A DNA stretch of 64,000 nucleotides from Candidatus Puniceispirillum marinum IMCC1322 (lineage in GTDB: Bacteria > Pseudomonadota > Alphaproteobacteria > Puniceispirillales > Puniceispirillaceae). The notes below the pieces were generated by a model. That model ran no database searches. It was not told the origin of the DNA and saw nothing but the letters and a program-made list of their open reading frames with translations. Position numbers and translations under genes: made by a program. Positions 14,693 through 46,787 of this stretch are shown in pieces. Each line of letters starts with the position of its first letter. Positions within the stretch are counted from its first letter, which is position 1. The stretch is taken from NCBI RefSeq assembly GCF_000024465.1, contig NC_014010.1:1116001-1180000 (forward strand). Reading direction: 5' to 3'.

Positions 14693-16246
14693 CTAGAAGT
14701 CGCTGTCGGGCAGGCCTTCCATGCGGGTGGCGATATAGGCGCGCAATTCTTCATCCTTGGCTGGATCAAGCACTGGTGCCTGATAGGACTCCAGCATTTC
14801 GGCAACACGTTTGCGCGCGCGTTCGTTGCTTTCGGCCGCGCCTTCGGCAGACCATTGTTCAAAGGTCGTATTATCAGCCAGCTCGGAACGCCAGAAAGCG
14901 GTTTCAAAATTAGCCTGTGTATGGCTGGATCCCAGAAAATGCTGACCAGGGCCAGTTTCGCGCAAAGCATCCATGGCCTGACCATTTTCACTGACATCAA
15001 TAGCACTTACAAGATCCTGCATCATGGTGAGCTGGTCGGCATCAAGCAATAGCTTGGCATAATCAGCAACCAGACCACCTTCCATCCAGCCAGCCGCATG
15101 CAGGACAAAATTCACCCCACCCATAACGGTTGGAATAATCGTATGTGTTGATTCATAAGCCGCTTGTGCATCAGCTGTCTTTGATCCAGTCAACGAGCCA
15201 CCAGACCGGAATGGTACATTCAGCCGCCGCGCCAGCTTGGCACAGGCATAAAGAACCTTGGCCGGTTCCGGTGTGCCAAAGGTTGGCGCACCTGTTTGCA
15301 TCGACATCGAGCTGGCAAAGCTACCAAAGATTACCGGTGCCCCCGGATTAACCGCCTGGGTAAAGGCAATACCGCTCATCGCTTCGGCCAGTGTCTGAGT
15401 CAAGGTTCCCGCAACCGAGACTGGCGACATCGCCCCCGCCAGAATAAACGGCGCGGTAATCACTGCCTGATTATTGCGCGCATAAACTTTAAGCGCGCCC
15501 AGCATCGTATCATCCCATGTCATCGGTGAATTGGCATTGATTAGGCTGGTCACAACGGTATTTTTTGCAACAAAATCAGCCCCAAATAATATTTTCGACA
15601 TCTCGACCGTATCGGCAGCGCGGCTTGGCGCGGTGACCGACCCCATATAGGGCTTATCCGACAGGCTTTGATGCGCATAAATCATTTCCAAGTGACGCTT
15701 GGTAATCGGCAAATCAACAGGTTCGCAGACAGTGCCACCCGAATGATGGAATCCCGGGTGCATATAAACCAGCTTCACAAAATTACGGAAATCTTCCATC
15801 GTCGCATAACGACGCTCGCCTGCGAGGTCGCGAACAAAGGGTGGGCCATAGACCGGCGCAAAGACCGTCTTATTGCCGCCAATTTCAACCGAACGTTCGG
15901 GATTGCGCGCATGCTGTGTAAAGCTGGCTGGCGCGGTCGCACATAGCTGACGGGCAAGCCCGCGTGGAAAGCGTACACGTTCACCTTTGACGTCAGCACC
16001 TGCATTGCGCAGAATATCAAGTGCCTCTGGATCATCACGAAAATCAATGCCAATTTCTTCAAGGATGGTTTCGGCATTATATTCGATAATTTCAGTAGCT
16101 TCCTCGCTGAGAATATCTACCGGAGCAATCTCGCGTGTGATAAAGGGAGCCGACAAGCCTGCAGCCCCTGCCGCGCGCATCTGACGGCGTGCATCACGAC
16201 CACCACCACGGCGGCTTTTTCTTTCACTGGTCTGTGTTTCAGACAT
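14693..16246 (-). CDS. MttB-family corrinoid methyltransferase (non-pyrrolysine type)
   Basis: 517 residues with clear similarity to trimethylamine methyltransferase MttB over its length. The frame is uninterrupted and needs no in-frame UAG, so it belongs to the large non-pyrrolysine branch, whose characterised anaerobic members (MtgB, MtpB and relatives) demethylate quaternary amines such as glycine betaine or proline betaine onto a corrinoid protein. The substrate here is unknown. The N-terminus (about 8-25) is unusually Arg/Gly-rich, SRRGGGRDARRQ. GAGG precedes the ATG. It lies 39 nt downstream of the dimethylglycine dehydrogenase-like gene on the same strand and converges on soxBDAG, which argues for a methylated glycine-type substrate. 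Its corrinoid partner is probably the protein at 46083-46787. Confidence 0.85.
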   Translation of the reverse strand: MSETQTSERKSRRGGGRDARRQMRAAGAAGLSAPFITREIAPVDILSEEATEIIEYNAETILEEIGIDFRDDPEALDILRNAGADVKGERVRFPRGLARQLCATAPASFTQHARNPERSVEIGGNKTVFAPVYGPPFVRDLAGERRYATMEDFRNFVKLVYMHPGFHHSGGTVCEPVDLPITKRHLEMIYAHQSLSDKPYMGSVTAPSRAADTVEMSKILFGADFVAKNTVVTSLINANSPMTWDDTMLGALKVYARNNQAVITAPFILAGAMSPVSVAGTLTQTLAEAMSGIAFTQAVNPGAPVIFGSFASSMSMQTGAPTFGTPEPAKVLYACAKLARRLNVPFRSGGSLTGSKTADAQAAYESTHTIIPTVMGGVNFVLHAAGWMEGGLVADYAKLLLDADQLTMMQDLVSAIDVSENGQAMDALRETGPGQHFLGSSHTQANFETAFWRSELADNTTFEQWSAEGAAESNERARKRVAEMLESYQAPVLDPAKDEELRAYIATRMEGLPDSDF

Positions 16247-38850: not shown

Positions 38851-40920
38851 CTAGCTGGAACGCCGACGGCCACCCCGCCGACGGCCGCCTTCAAGCGCAG
38901 GGGCATCTTGTGCTGTCAGAATGCGTTCAGGCAATGGAACCATTGCCGACAGTTTGGCATAGGGATCGCTTTTGTGCGGGATCGCCATCGCCTTGACGAA
39001 ATGATCCTGAAATGAGGGCTCAATCGCGGTTTCGATTTTTTCGATATTGCGCACGGTCTGTTCAATTTCAGCGCGAGCACCTTTATTCAGCAAGGCCATG
39101 CGCGCACCTGCACCTGCCGAATTACCTGCCGCCCTCACATTTTCAAGCTCGCAATCGGGGATCATACCAAGCACCATGGCATATTTAGGGTCAATATGCG
39201 TACCAAAGGCCCCCGCCAGCACAACCTTGTCGATATGGTTGATATTGATCTTATCCATCAATAAACGGAAACCAGCATATAGCGCGGCTTTGGCCAGCTG
39301 GATCGCGCGTACATCATTCTGGGTGACGGTTACATTGTCGCTGACACGATAGCGGAATGTACGGTCATCAGCCTCAATGCGCGGGCTGATCAAAGCTTTG
39401 CCACCATCAATCACACCATCCATCGTGATGATGCCGGATAAATACATTTCACCCAGAATTTCAATGATTCCCGATCCGCATATGCCGGTAATGCCAGTGG
39501 ATTTTACCGCTTCGTCAAAGCCATCTTCATCCGACCATTGGTCAACGCCGATAACGCAAAAGCGCGGCTCCAGCGTTACCGGATCAATACGCACCCGCTC
39601 GATCGCCCCGGGAGCCGCACGCTGGCCAGATGAAATCTGCGCCCCTTCAAAGGCAGGCCCTGTTGGCGAGGATGCGGCCAGAAGCCGGTCACGATTACCA
39701 ACGACAATCTCGGCATTGGTGCCCACATCAATAAGCAATGTCATTTTATCGGTTTTCTGCGGCGCTTCGGCAAGCACGACACCGGCGGCATCAGCCCCAA
39801 CATGCCCAGCAATACATGGCAGGATATAGGCGCGTGCGCCCTGGTTCAAAGCAAGGCCAAGGTCGCTGGCTTTCAGACTGAGGGCGCTATCAACAGCCAG
39901 TGCAAAGGGGGCACCGCCAAGCTCTAGCGGATCAATGCCCAAAAGCAGGTGGTGCATAACCGGATTACCGACCAGAACAATTTCGATCACGTCATCACTC
40001 GACATGCCAGCCTGTTCGGCGGCACCATCAATCAGCTGCTGCAAGCCTGCGATGACAGCCTTGGTCATTTCAGCAGGCCCATCAGGATTCATAATGCCAT
40101 AAGACACCCGACTCATAAGATCTTCGCCAAACCGAATTTGCGGATTCATCGCGCCCGTTGAGGCAAGTACCGCGCCCGTTGCCATATCGCAAAGATGCGC
40201 CGACATGGTTGTCGAGCCCACATCGATAGCGACGCCAACGACATTTTCTTTCAGCCCCGGCCAGATGCCTGTTATGTGACAGCCATCACGCAAGGCAACG
40301 GTCACATGCCATTTGCCCTCGCGCAGAACAGGCTGTAACTGCTGAAGGATATGTAAATCACAGGTGATTTCACCTGATACACGATCTGGCCATTGCTTTG
40401 CCAAAGCTTCGGCCAGACGACGAAAATCACCAGATGGTTCATGCATATCGGGTTCGCGCACCTCGACAAGGCATAGCCGCACAACTGGATCCATTTCGAT
40501 CTGACGTTCATCCGCCGCCTTGCGAACAAGCTGGTTATGCACCTGGCTTTCAGGTGGCACATCGATCACCGCATCGGCAAGCAGGACAGACTGACATGAT
40601 AGCCGCCGACCATCAGCCAGACCGCGTTTATCCGCATAACGGGTTTCAACCGCCGTTACCGCACCAAGACTTCCAGCCCCTGAGACGATACCATGTTTCG
40701 CAAATTCACCAGTACCAACATTAATCTGGCACCGTCCACACATCGCCCGGCCACCACAAACAGAGTCTATATCAACACCAAGTTCGCGCGCGGCCTGCAG
40801 CACAGTTGTTCCCTGCGCGACTTTAGCCTGACGGCCTGATGGCGTGAAAACAACTTTGATATCAGTTTTGCCGTTCAGGTTTGCATCGGGGACATCGGCG
40901 ACGGTTGGATCTGTGCTCAT
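38851..40920 (-). CDS. RACo-like corrinoid activation protein (2Fe-2S + ASKHA ATPase)
   Basis: 689 residues. The N-terminal plant-type 2Fe-2S domain has Cys55, Cys61, Cys64 and Cys109. The rest is an ASKHA-type fold (AIDVGSTTMSAHL, LLIDVGTNAEIVVG, GICGSGIIEILGEM), the DUF4445 architecture of RACo, the ATP-dependent activator of corrinoid proteins. Known members reduce inactive Co(II) to Co(I) so that the corrinoid can accept methyl groups. The last 13 residues are GGRRRGGRRRSS-like. It follows the methyl-THF:corrinoid methyltransferase gene by 30 nt, so its partner is probably the corrinoid protein at 46083-46787. Confidence 0.88.
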   Translation of the reverse strand: MSTDPTVADVPDANLNGKTDIKVVFTPSGRQAKVAQGTTVLQAARELGVDIDSVCGGRAMCGRCQINVGTGEFAKHGIVSGAGSLGAVTAVETRYADKRGLADGRRLSCQSVLLADAVIDVPPESQVHNQLVRKAADERQIEMDPVVRLCLVEVREPDMHEPSGDFRRLAEALAKQWPDRVSGEITCDLHILQQLQPVLREGKWHVTVALRDGCHITGIWPGLKENVVGVAIDVGSTTMSAHLCDMATGAVLASTGAMNPQIRFGEDLMSRVSYGIMNPDGPAEMTKAVIAGLQQLIDGAAEQAGMSSDDVIEIVLVGNPVMHHLLLGIDPLELGGAPFALAVDSALSLKASDLGLALNQGARAYILPCIAGHVGADAAGVVLAEAPQKTDKMTLLIDVGTNAEIVVGNRDRLLAASSPTGPAFEGAQISSGQRAAPGAIERVRIDPVTLEPRFCVIGVDQWSDEDGFDEAVKSTGITGICGSGIIEILGEMYLSGIITMDGVIDGGKALISPRIEADDRTFRYRVSDNVTVTQNDVRAIQLAKAALYAGFRLLMDKININHIDKVVLAGAFGTHIDPKYAMVLGMIPDCELENVRAAGNSAGAGARMALLNKGARAEIEQTVRNIEKIETAIEPSFQDHFVKAMAIPHKSDPYAKLSAMVPLPERILTAQDAPALEGGRRRGGRRRSS

Positions 40921-40950
40921 ATAGCTTGCCTAACATAATTGGGCATACCC

Positions 40951-41853
40951 TTAGGCACTCCGGCTACGACGTGTCTGACGACGTTCGCGACCACCAGATC
41001 CTGCGGCAACCGGTTCACGAAAACGCTTGATCCAATTACGACATTCAGGGTCATTACCATTCATAACATTTGCACCCATTATACCCGTCATTTCTTCAGA
41101 ATGAAGCGGATTCATGATCGCCGATGTCATGCCTGCACCTGCTGCCATCGATAAAAAGGCAGCATTCATGCCATGCCGGTTTGGCAAACCAAAGGAAATG
41201 TTGGAAGCCCCGCAGGTTGTGTTCACCTTAAGCTCATTACGCAACCGAATAATCAGGTCTAGTGCCGAACGCCCCGCCATATTGATGGCGCCAACCGGCA
41301 TGATCAGCGGATCAACAATGACATCTTCGCGCGGGATACCGTAATCCTCGGCGCGCTCTACAATCATTTTGGCAACCTCATAACGAACATTCGGATCTTC
41401 GGAAATGCCGGTTTCGTCATTCGAAATTGCAACAACAGCCGCACCATATTTCTTGACTAGCGGTAAAACAACTTCAAGACGCTCTTCTTCGCCTGTTACC
41501 GAATTTACCAACGGCTTACCTTTATAAACAGATAGGCCAGCTTCAAGCGCGGCAACAATCGAACTATCAATCGCCAGCGGCACATCGACAACATCCTGAA
41601 CCAGCTTGATTGACTCAGCCAGAATGGCCGGTTCGTCAGCCATAGGGATACCCGCATTCACATCAAGCATCGTTGCGCCAGCTTCAACCTGTGCCACGGC
41701 ATCTGCAATAACCCGCGAATAGTCACCAGCCGCCATTTCGGCTGCTAGTAATTTACGACCTGTTGGATTGATCCGCTCGCCAATGACGCAAAAGGGCGCC
41801 TCAAAACCAATGGTAATTTCCTGTTTATCGGATGAAATAAGTGTTTTGGTCAT
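40951..41853 (-). CDS. Methyltetrahydrofolate:corrinoid methyltransferase (AcsE/MeTr-like)
   Basis: 300 residues, a pterin-binding TIM barrel of the MeTr/dihydropteroate synthase superfamily: GERINPTGRK, DVNAGIPMADEP, AIDSS, NSVTGEE and the folate-site region MPVGAINMAGRS. It moves a methyl group between N5-methyl-THF and a corrinoid protein. The C-terminal tail (about 283-300) is Arg-rich, SGGRERRQTRRSRSA. It is probably co-transcribed with the RACo-like gene. Alternative: it could feed methionine synthesis, but no methionine synthase is in the window. Confidence 0.88.
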   Translation of the reverse strand: MTKTLISSDKQEITIGFEAPFCVIGERINPTGRKLLAAEMAAGDYSRVIADAVAQVEAGATMLDVNAGIPMADEPAILAESIKLVQDVVDVPLAIDSSIVAALEAGLSVYKGKPLVNSVTGEEERLEVVLPLVKKYGAAVVAISNDETGISEDPNVRYEVAKMIVERAEDYGIPREDVIVDPLIMPVGAINMAGRSALDLIIRLRNELKVNTTCGASNISFGLPNRHGMNAAFLSMAAGAGMTSAIMNPLHSEEMTGIMGANVMNGNDPECRNWIKRFREPVAAGSGGRERRQTRRSRSA

Positions 41854-45117: not shown

Positions 45118-45435
45118 CTAATTATTGGGCTGAAAACCGCCATTTTCAACCAGAAGCTTGACCCTTTCGGATGGATAATCATGTTCGAGCTTTTCAGCAT
45201 GCATGCGGGCTTCTGCATCAAGATCCTCGCCGCATGTAACTGGGTCAGCCCGACGCCATTCGGCCAGATAATCATCAGTCCCATCAGCCCCATCGCGCAT
45301 CGCCGCCGCGTCAATCGCAATCGAAAACCGCTTGGGAAGTTCAATTTTTGCCTGTTCACGATTCCGGCCACGTCCACGTTCGGCAATGACCTGTGCAGGA
45401 ATATCGCGCCAATACAGCGTGATTAGATTAGCCAT
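45118..45435 (-). CDS. Small PF13769-like (virulence factor) protein
   Basis: 105 residues, no signal peptide or membrane segment. Start LITLYWRDIPAQVIAERGRGR and the acidic second half resemble the Virulence_fact family, a name with no established biochemistry. CGGGAG precedes the ATG. It sits between the DUF1638 and MTHFR-like genes of the corrinoid cluster, so a role in the same methyl-transfer pathway is more likely than virulence. Confidence 0.7.
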   Translation of the reverse strand: MANLITLYWRDIPAQVIAERGRGRNREQAKIELPKRFSIAIDAAAMRDGADGTDDYLAEWRRADPVTCGEDLDAEARMHAEKLEHDYPSERVKLLVENGGFQPNN

Positions 45436-46082: not shown

Positions 46083-46787
46083 CTAGCCAGCCGCCTGTTC
46101 TTTCGCACGACGCGCCGCAATCATTTCTTTAGCCGTTTCGACAGCCACCGCCGCATCACGGCAATAGGCGTCAGCACCAACCGAGTCGGCAAAGGCTTCG
46201 TTCAAAGGTGCACCGCCAACAAGCACGATATAATCATCGCGAATGCCTTTTTCGATCATCGCATCAACGACAACTTTCATATATGGCATGGTTGTTGTGA
46301 GCAAAGCCGACATGCCAAGAATGTCAGGCTTATGTTCTTCAAGCGCTTCAAGATAATTTTCAACCGGATTGTTAATACCAAGATCAATCACGTCAAAACC
46401 GGCACCTTCAAGCATCATCGATACAAGGTTTTTACCAATGTCGTGAATGTCACCCTTGACCGTGCCAATAACCATTGTGCCGACACGTGGCGCACCGGTT
46501 TCAGCCAGAAGCGGGCGTAGCACAACCATGCCAGCCTTCATGGCGTTTGCCGCCATCAAAACTTCGGGCACAAACAAGATACCATCCCGGAAATCAATGC
46601 CGACAATAGTCATGCCTTCGACAAGCGCCTTGGTCAGAACTTCATATGGTGTCCATTTGCGCGCCAGCAGAATGTTAACACCTTCAACGATTTCGTCCTG
46701 CAGACCATCATAAAGATCATCATGCATCTGTTGGACAAGTTCGTCATCATCTAGGTCAGCAAGGATAATTTCGTCTTCGTCAGCCAT
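46083..46787 (-). CDS. Corrinoid-binding methyltransferase protein (MtbC/MttC-like)
   Basis: 234 residues. An N-terminal four-helix cap (about 15-95, KALVEGMTIVGIDFRDGILF and FVPEVLMAANAM) is followed by a Rossmann B12 domain with the cobalt-ligand motif DIHDIG (Asp113-x-His115-x-x-Gly118), then GMSALLTTTMPYM and VGGAPLNEAFADSVGAD. It carries the methyl group on cobalamin between a substrate methyltransferase (probably the MttB-like protein) and the MeTr at 40951. AGGAG lies 8 nt before the ATG. First gene of the corrinoid operon; no cobalamin riboswitch is visible upstream. Confidence 0.9.
   Translation of the reverse strand: MADEDEIILADLDDDELVQQMHDDLYDGLQDEIVEGVNILLARKWTPYEVLTKALVEGMTIVGIDFRDGILFVPEVLMAANAMKAGMVVLRPLLAETGAPRVGTMVIGTVKGDIHDIGKNLVSMMLEGAGFDVIDLGINNPVENYLEALEEHKPDILGMSALLTTTMPYMKVVVDAMIEKGIRDDYIVLVGGAPLNEAFADSVGADAYCRDAAVAVETAKEMIAARRAKEQAAG

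Follow-up and report, generated by a model that had tools for sequence, protein, structure and literature searches.

Arginine-rich tails on four unrelated enzymes of a split corrinoid methyl relay, a candidate docking tag for the carrier protein MtgC

How a split, oxygen-exposed B12 relay keeps four enzymes on one carrier is the question raised by a locus of Candidatus Puniceispirillum marinum IMCC1322 (complete genome, 2.75 Mb). The window, i.e., the whole 64,000-nucleotide stretch of DNA analyzed here, carries on its minus strand, from position 46787 down to 38851, the genes mtgC, DUF1638, a PF13769 gene, an MTHFR-like gene, metF2, mtgD and ramA, in this order, with one divergent LysR-type gene (assigned by eye) inside the cluster. 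MtgBCD and RamA, as encoded in the window, form an aerobic split corrinoid system that is already known (PMC12478193, PMC5764234). In Ruegeria and Phaeobacter, these two papers describe the system both as a split methionine synthase and as a glycine betaine demethylase; methyl groups pass from MtgB to the cobalamin of MtgC, are exchanged with tetrahydrofolate through MtgD and are handed to homocysteine by MtgE, and RamA re-reduces the cobalamin. PMC12478193 further reports that deletion in R. pomeroyi led to methionine auxotrophy and loss of growth on betaine, and that the MtgBCDE system is highly expressed in the ocean. The DUF1638 protein is also required for reactivation (PMC5764234).

The components were assigned by their domains. 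MtgC (46083..46787, minus strand) combines B12-binding and cap domains (PF02310, PF02607) with a DxHxxG motif, located within KGDIHDIGKN, as is typical of a corrinoid carrier; with the anaerobic MtgC models, it does not reach the cut-off scores. The ramA product (38851..40920, minus strand) has a 2Fe-2S ferredoxin (Fer2) domain together with RACo linker, middle and ASKHA domains (PF14574, PF17651, PF17650, PF00111), which identifies it as a RamA/RACo-like reductive activator of corrinoid. It is not AcsV itself, as that model aligned to residues 22-650 with 394 bits, compared to a cut-off of 800. MtgD (40951..41853, minus strand), the methyl-tetrahydrofolate:corrinoid methyltransferase, was recognized by the pterin-binding domain PF00809 and by NF005719, above cut-off. 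The MtgB/MttB-family methylamine:corrinoid methyltransferase (14693..16246, minus strand; PF06253, E 2.6e-233) is one of seven paralogues in the genome; it scored 269 bits, compared to a cut-off of 525, with the equivalog model of the pyrrolysine MttB (TIGR02369), its open frame has no in-frame amber codon, and it is a non-pyrrolysine member of the MttB superfamily. MtgE, the homocysteine partner, was located through a family search at genome positions 2088282-2089400 (2.088 Mb), approximately 0.93 Mb from the cluster. A search of the host genome gave no match to classical MetH, and only one pterin-domain match and two B12-binding matches genome-wide. With a separate corrinoid carrier, MttB-family and pterin-binding methyltransferases, a separate homocysteine methyltransferase and no classical MetH, the genome has the composition of a split system. 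The remaining neighbors, also on the minus strand, are the DUF1638 protein (PF07796; 45452..46120), the methylene-THF reductase MetF2 (PF02219; 42057..43007), the MTHFR-like protein (PF02219; 44021..44920) and the small PF13769 protein (45118..45435). The MTHFR-like protein, encoded beside a full MetF2, is a weak match to its family (43 bits). The PF13769 protein, labeled "virulence factor" in Pfam, carries a conserved YWRDIPAQV, and its location inside the operon suggests a role in corrinoid metabolism.

An earlier note on this DNA had described arginine-rich tails on the RamA-like, MtgD and MttB-like proteins, and the letters and coordinates were correct on re-reading of the sequence. RamA ends in EGGRRRGGRRRSS, with its Arg/Gly tail (GGRRRGGRRRSS) at 38854..38889 on the minus strand and the Pfam match stopping at residue 653, 36 residues short of the end, and MtgD carries a C-terminal Arg tail (GGRERRQTRRSRSA; 40954..40995, minus strand). 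In the MttB-like protein, whose gene sits 22 kb outside the range given by the earlier note, the tail is N-terminal; the protein starts with MSETQTSERKSRRGGGRDARRQMR and its Arg/Gly stretch (RKSRRGGGRDARRQMR; 16175..16222, minus strand) carries the family motif GGRxARRxxR. The set is also larger than the three proteins originally named, as MtgE, encoded outside the window, is a fourth member, with a C-terminal end (GGRRGRRGRRRS / GAGGRRGRRGRRRS) of the same kind as those of RamA and MtgD. A second homocysteine methyltransferase of the host genome does not have such a tail. All seven MttB paralogues of this genome have an Arg-rich N-terminus, and the Pfam profile of the MttB family itself starts within the Arg stretch (match from residue 13). 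Residues 1-34 of MtgB are disordered in a monomer AlphaFold model (pLDDT <50); this disorder is the sole feature taken from that model (mean pLDDT 70, ten sequences). Tails of this kind are above chance, since among the 405 proteins called in 464 kb sampled from this genome, only 6 of the 403 others (1.5%) have at least six Arg within their 25 C-terminal residues. A whole-genome search for RRxRRR as a DNA pattern with CGN codons gave 15 matches, MtgE among them.

Orthologues were taken from 42 alphaproteobacterial genomes and 80 named loci; the latter represent Alpha-, Beta- and Gammaproteobacteria, Acidimicrobiia, one Planktophila and one Chloroflexi MAG, and MAG labels may hide contamination. 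With a tail defined as at least five Arg in the last 25 residues, and distinct ends counted, tails were found in 122/122 MtgD, 100/106 RamA and 30/31 MtgE orthologues (bit-score threshold for MtgE, 250). Among MttB-family proteins, 96 of 98 had at least five Arg within the 40 residues that precede the core, a stretch that in some rows may take in a few codons upstream of the true start. Of the six RamA sequences with fewer Arg, L179 has no tail, L235 and L250 have weak ones, L082 and L175 continue for some residues beyond the Arg block, and the frame of L194 is cut. Two weaker MtgE homologues (L169 and L171), below the 250-bit threshold and outside the 30/31, have no tail; they represent two small genomes (L071/L169 and L171; G078, G058) whose MtgD keeps its tail. 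Thus, the earlier question of whether the tails are absent from most orthologues can be answered in the negative, as they are nearly universal in four non-homologous partners of MtgC. They extend from Alphaproteobacteria to Actinobacteria, which rules out a restriction to SAR116 and shows retention across phyla. The linker before the Arg block varies and the Arg block itself is constant. Arginine is preferred over lysine, with R/(R+K) in the tails of MtgD, RamA and MtgE of 0.95, 0.86 and 0.92, compared to 0.57, 0.69 and 0.63 in the respective cores.

The tails are not a general property of the operon. The five-Arg threshold was reached by 5/95 homologues of DUF1638 and by 2/88 homologues of the PF13769 protein (six Arg by none), and tails were found in 0/28 MetF2 and 0/35 MTHFR-like proteins; a comparison of the tailed partners with these operon-mate controls gave a Fisher p of ~5e-125, a value that ignores phylogeny. 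These counts rule out tails on every operon protein. MetF2 acts on free methyl-tetrahydrofolate and does not need contact with MtgC. Homologues that serve other partners were also mostly tailless. MetH1 of the two-part MetH, the homocysteine half, which catalyzes the same reaction with another partner, had an Arg tail in 0/25 sequences. In the genome G184, which carries the tailed system, another corrinoid protein is encoded elsewhere together with dedicated MtgD-like, RamA-like and URO-D-type enzymes, and none of these enzymes is tailed. Dedicated corrinoid systems with URO-D-type methyltransferases, additional to the tailed MtgC system, were observed in this genome at L355 (3914-8822) and L356 (6738-12118). 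URO-D-family methyltransferases were rejected as extra clients, those beside their own corrinoid protein being tailless. The divergent MttB L357, which adjoins its own corrinoid protein, has no tail, and neither has L164. Two very divergent MttB proteins beside their own corrinoid protein (L358, 5028-6629; L359, 1274-2959) do have Arg near the N-terminus, which counts against a docking tag. In anaerobic homologues, solved structures only, at most ~9 residues extend beyond the conserved core, compared to 20 to 42 here. A search for further clients among the neighbors in the 80 loci passed 22 of 767 other genes, mostly spurious frames in GC-rich DNA when inspected by eye. Judged from the sequences, the tag appears to be present in all enzymes that need MtgC and absent where MtgC is not needed, with the exceptions given here. 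The earlier suggestion of a shared signal tied to the corrinoid system is supported, as the tails are nearly universal in the MtgC partners and missing both in the operon mates and in most paralogues with a different corrinoid protein, and as the acidic N-terminus of MtgC is equally conserved.

The carrier itself is acidic. The earlier note had called attention to the acidic N-terminus of the corrinoid protein (start MADEDEIILADLDDDELVQQMHDD); this segment is present and, with a net charge of -6 to -12 over ~24 residues, is conserved in 84/84 orthologues with a proper start (86 rows in total, two of which start inside the protein and were left out). The putative tail receptor, defined by orthologue charge count and a model, comprises residues 1-26 (46710..46787, minus strand); in the MtgC model, residues 1-8 are flexible and the cap domain opens with a helix at residues 14-26. 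In alignments with solved corrinoid proteins, the match starts at MtgC residue 16-20, so that most of them have no counterpart of the first ~13 residues; MtaC (2i2x) has its own, longer N-terminus. The enzyme cores have net charges of -15 to -23 and MtgC of -24; since both are net negative, positive tails would offset their repulsion. MtgC acidity and MtgD tail charge covary weakly (rho -0.26, p 0.04, phylogeny-uncorrected), and for the RamA tail the correlation is -0.10 (p 0.48).

Taken together, we slightly favor a role of the tails as a common electrostatic tag by which the enzymes dock on MtgC, in place of the covalent links between the modules of MetH. MtgB, MtgD, MtgE and RamA, which belong to unrelated families, have to reach the cobalamin of a single carrier one after the other. 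The flexible Arg/Gly tail of each enzyme is predicted to bind MtgC at its acidic N-terminus and the first helix of the cap, through a weak and interchangeable contact, which would raise the local concentration of the partners and still leave them free to swap. Such docking would be expected to speed methyl transfer or protect Co(I); a role of the tails as a shield for the Co(I) corrinoid, as proposed in the earlier note, is possible from sequence considerations. The tails probably hold the otherwise separate methionine-making and betaine-degrading enzymes together. As they occur on four unrelated families, three times at the C-terminus and once at the N-terminus, common descent of the tails is excluded. 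A docking tag explains their occurrence in four unrelated families, the free position of the tag, the variable linkers and the absence of tails in non-clients. On the other hand, the DUF1638 protein, which is also needed for reactivation, is tailless, and the tail is missing or weak in the RamA sequences L179 and L250 and in the MtgE sequences L169 and L171; these observations, like the weak covariation of charges, count against a docking tag. Overall, the interpretation in the earlier note is partly supported.

Both Arg tails and acidic segments are compatible with other partners, and the docking tag competes mainly with the idea of a common partner such as RNA, a membrane or a condensate. 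The tails could gather the four enzymes through another polyanion (RNA, the nucleoid, anionic membrane or polyphosphate) or a condensate, which MtgC would join by other means; the pathway would then be clustered by a tag that is not read by MtgC itself. Poly-Arg/RG tails are generally known as generic binders of nucleic acids and lipids, the variable tail position and linker length fit a non-stereospecific tether, and the weak covariation of the tails with MtgC is also in line with such a partner. This reading, which we consider rather unlikely, does not account for the conserved acidic N-terminus, which no operon protein but MtgC carries, or for the restriction of the tags to enzymes that must meet MtgC, to the exclusion of MetF2. 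It is less likely still that each tail has a separate job, such as solubility, oligomer contacts or binding of folate polyglutamate, with the likeness due to convergence and no shared partner. The poly-Arg of the other tails is less defined than the MtgB motif GGRxARRxxR, which is modeled with a low-confidence helix (15-25), and MtgD could bind polyglutamyl-folate via its basic tail. However, four unrelated families of the same pathway are tailed, MtgB, MtgE and RamA do not bind folate according to general knowledge of these families, and homologues serving other corrinoid proteins lack the tail.

A link of the tails to the system could also be regulatory, e.g., through a degradation or assembly-quality signal that acts when MtgC is absent. 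Flexible terminal segments are, in general, often recognition elements, but the location of the tails at opposite chain ends and the additional residues that follow the Arg block in L082 and L175 speak against a strict terminal degron, and we regard this explanation as very improbable. With regard to composition, all six Arg codons, including AGA and AGG, are used in the tails, and this mixture of synonymous codons indicates that the tails are not a DNA repeat; over a GC range of 0.32-0.72, Arg count and GC are not significantly correlated (rho -0.05 for MtgD, 0.07 for RamA and 0.26 for MtgE). Hence, even though CGN codons are common in GC-rich genomes, there is next to no chance that the tails have no function and simply reflect high GC content or a triplet repeat, an origin that is contradicted by the GC independence, the codon mix, the retention of Arg in low-GC members (e.g., MtgE at GC 0.32), the tailless neighbors in the same genomes and the own-genome background of 1.5%.

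Passages on MtgBCDE of Ruegeria pomeroyi and Phaeobacter inhibens (PMC12478193, PMC5764234) describe the same MtgC, MtgD, MttB-family MtgB, MtgE, RamA, DUF1638 and MetF2, and no biological difference from the system described here is known. The passages on MtgBCDE in PMC12478193 make no mention of tails or a docking signal, and neither tails nor arginine came up in a term search of PMC12366255; the tails are undescribed in the open-access literature searched, and they may have been noticed elsewhere. Classical MetH and the two-part MetH (MetH1 and MetH2) run the same methyl relay through a B12 module. The modules of classical MetH are covalently linked, unlike the separate tailed enzymes found here; the two-part MetH is split, but its MetH1 (L281-L305) has no Arg tail and instead a conserved end, MRLSGLEPF, which is a candidate docking end for MetH2. 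The anaerobic MttB/MtgB-corrinoid-MeTr-RamA/RACo systems of Methanosarcina, Desulfitobacterium and Carboxydothermus have homologous catalytic domains, but the chains of their solved members are too short at the ends to hold tails, and most of the corrinoid proteins have no acidic extension. Acyl carrier protein, too, is generally known as an acidic carrier on which several enzymes with positively charged docking sites act one after the other; those sites are surface patches, whereas the tag proposed here is a disordered tail, and there is no homology. RGG/RG-motif proteins are likewise Arg/Gly-rich, of low complexity and flexible, whereas the tails described here are short terminal poly-Arg segments with few true RGG repeats.

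A wider generalization can be offered only tentatively, namely that any enzyme given a tail joins the clients of the B12 carrier. Arg tails and an acidic carrier would then form a common, interchangeable code without covalent tethers, the tailed MttB paralogues (seven in this genome) would be clients of one MtgC, and a tail would predict new clients. If a docking tag is indeed present, a sequence tag would mark the clients of the carrier and account for how the split relay keeps its four enzymes at work on it, clients among the many MttB paralogues could be named, and the tag could be borrowed for the designed assembly of B12 enzymes.
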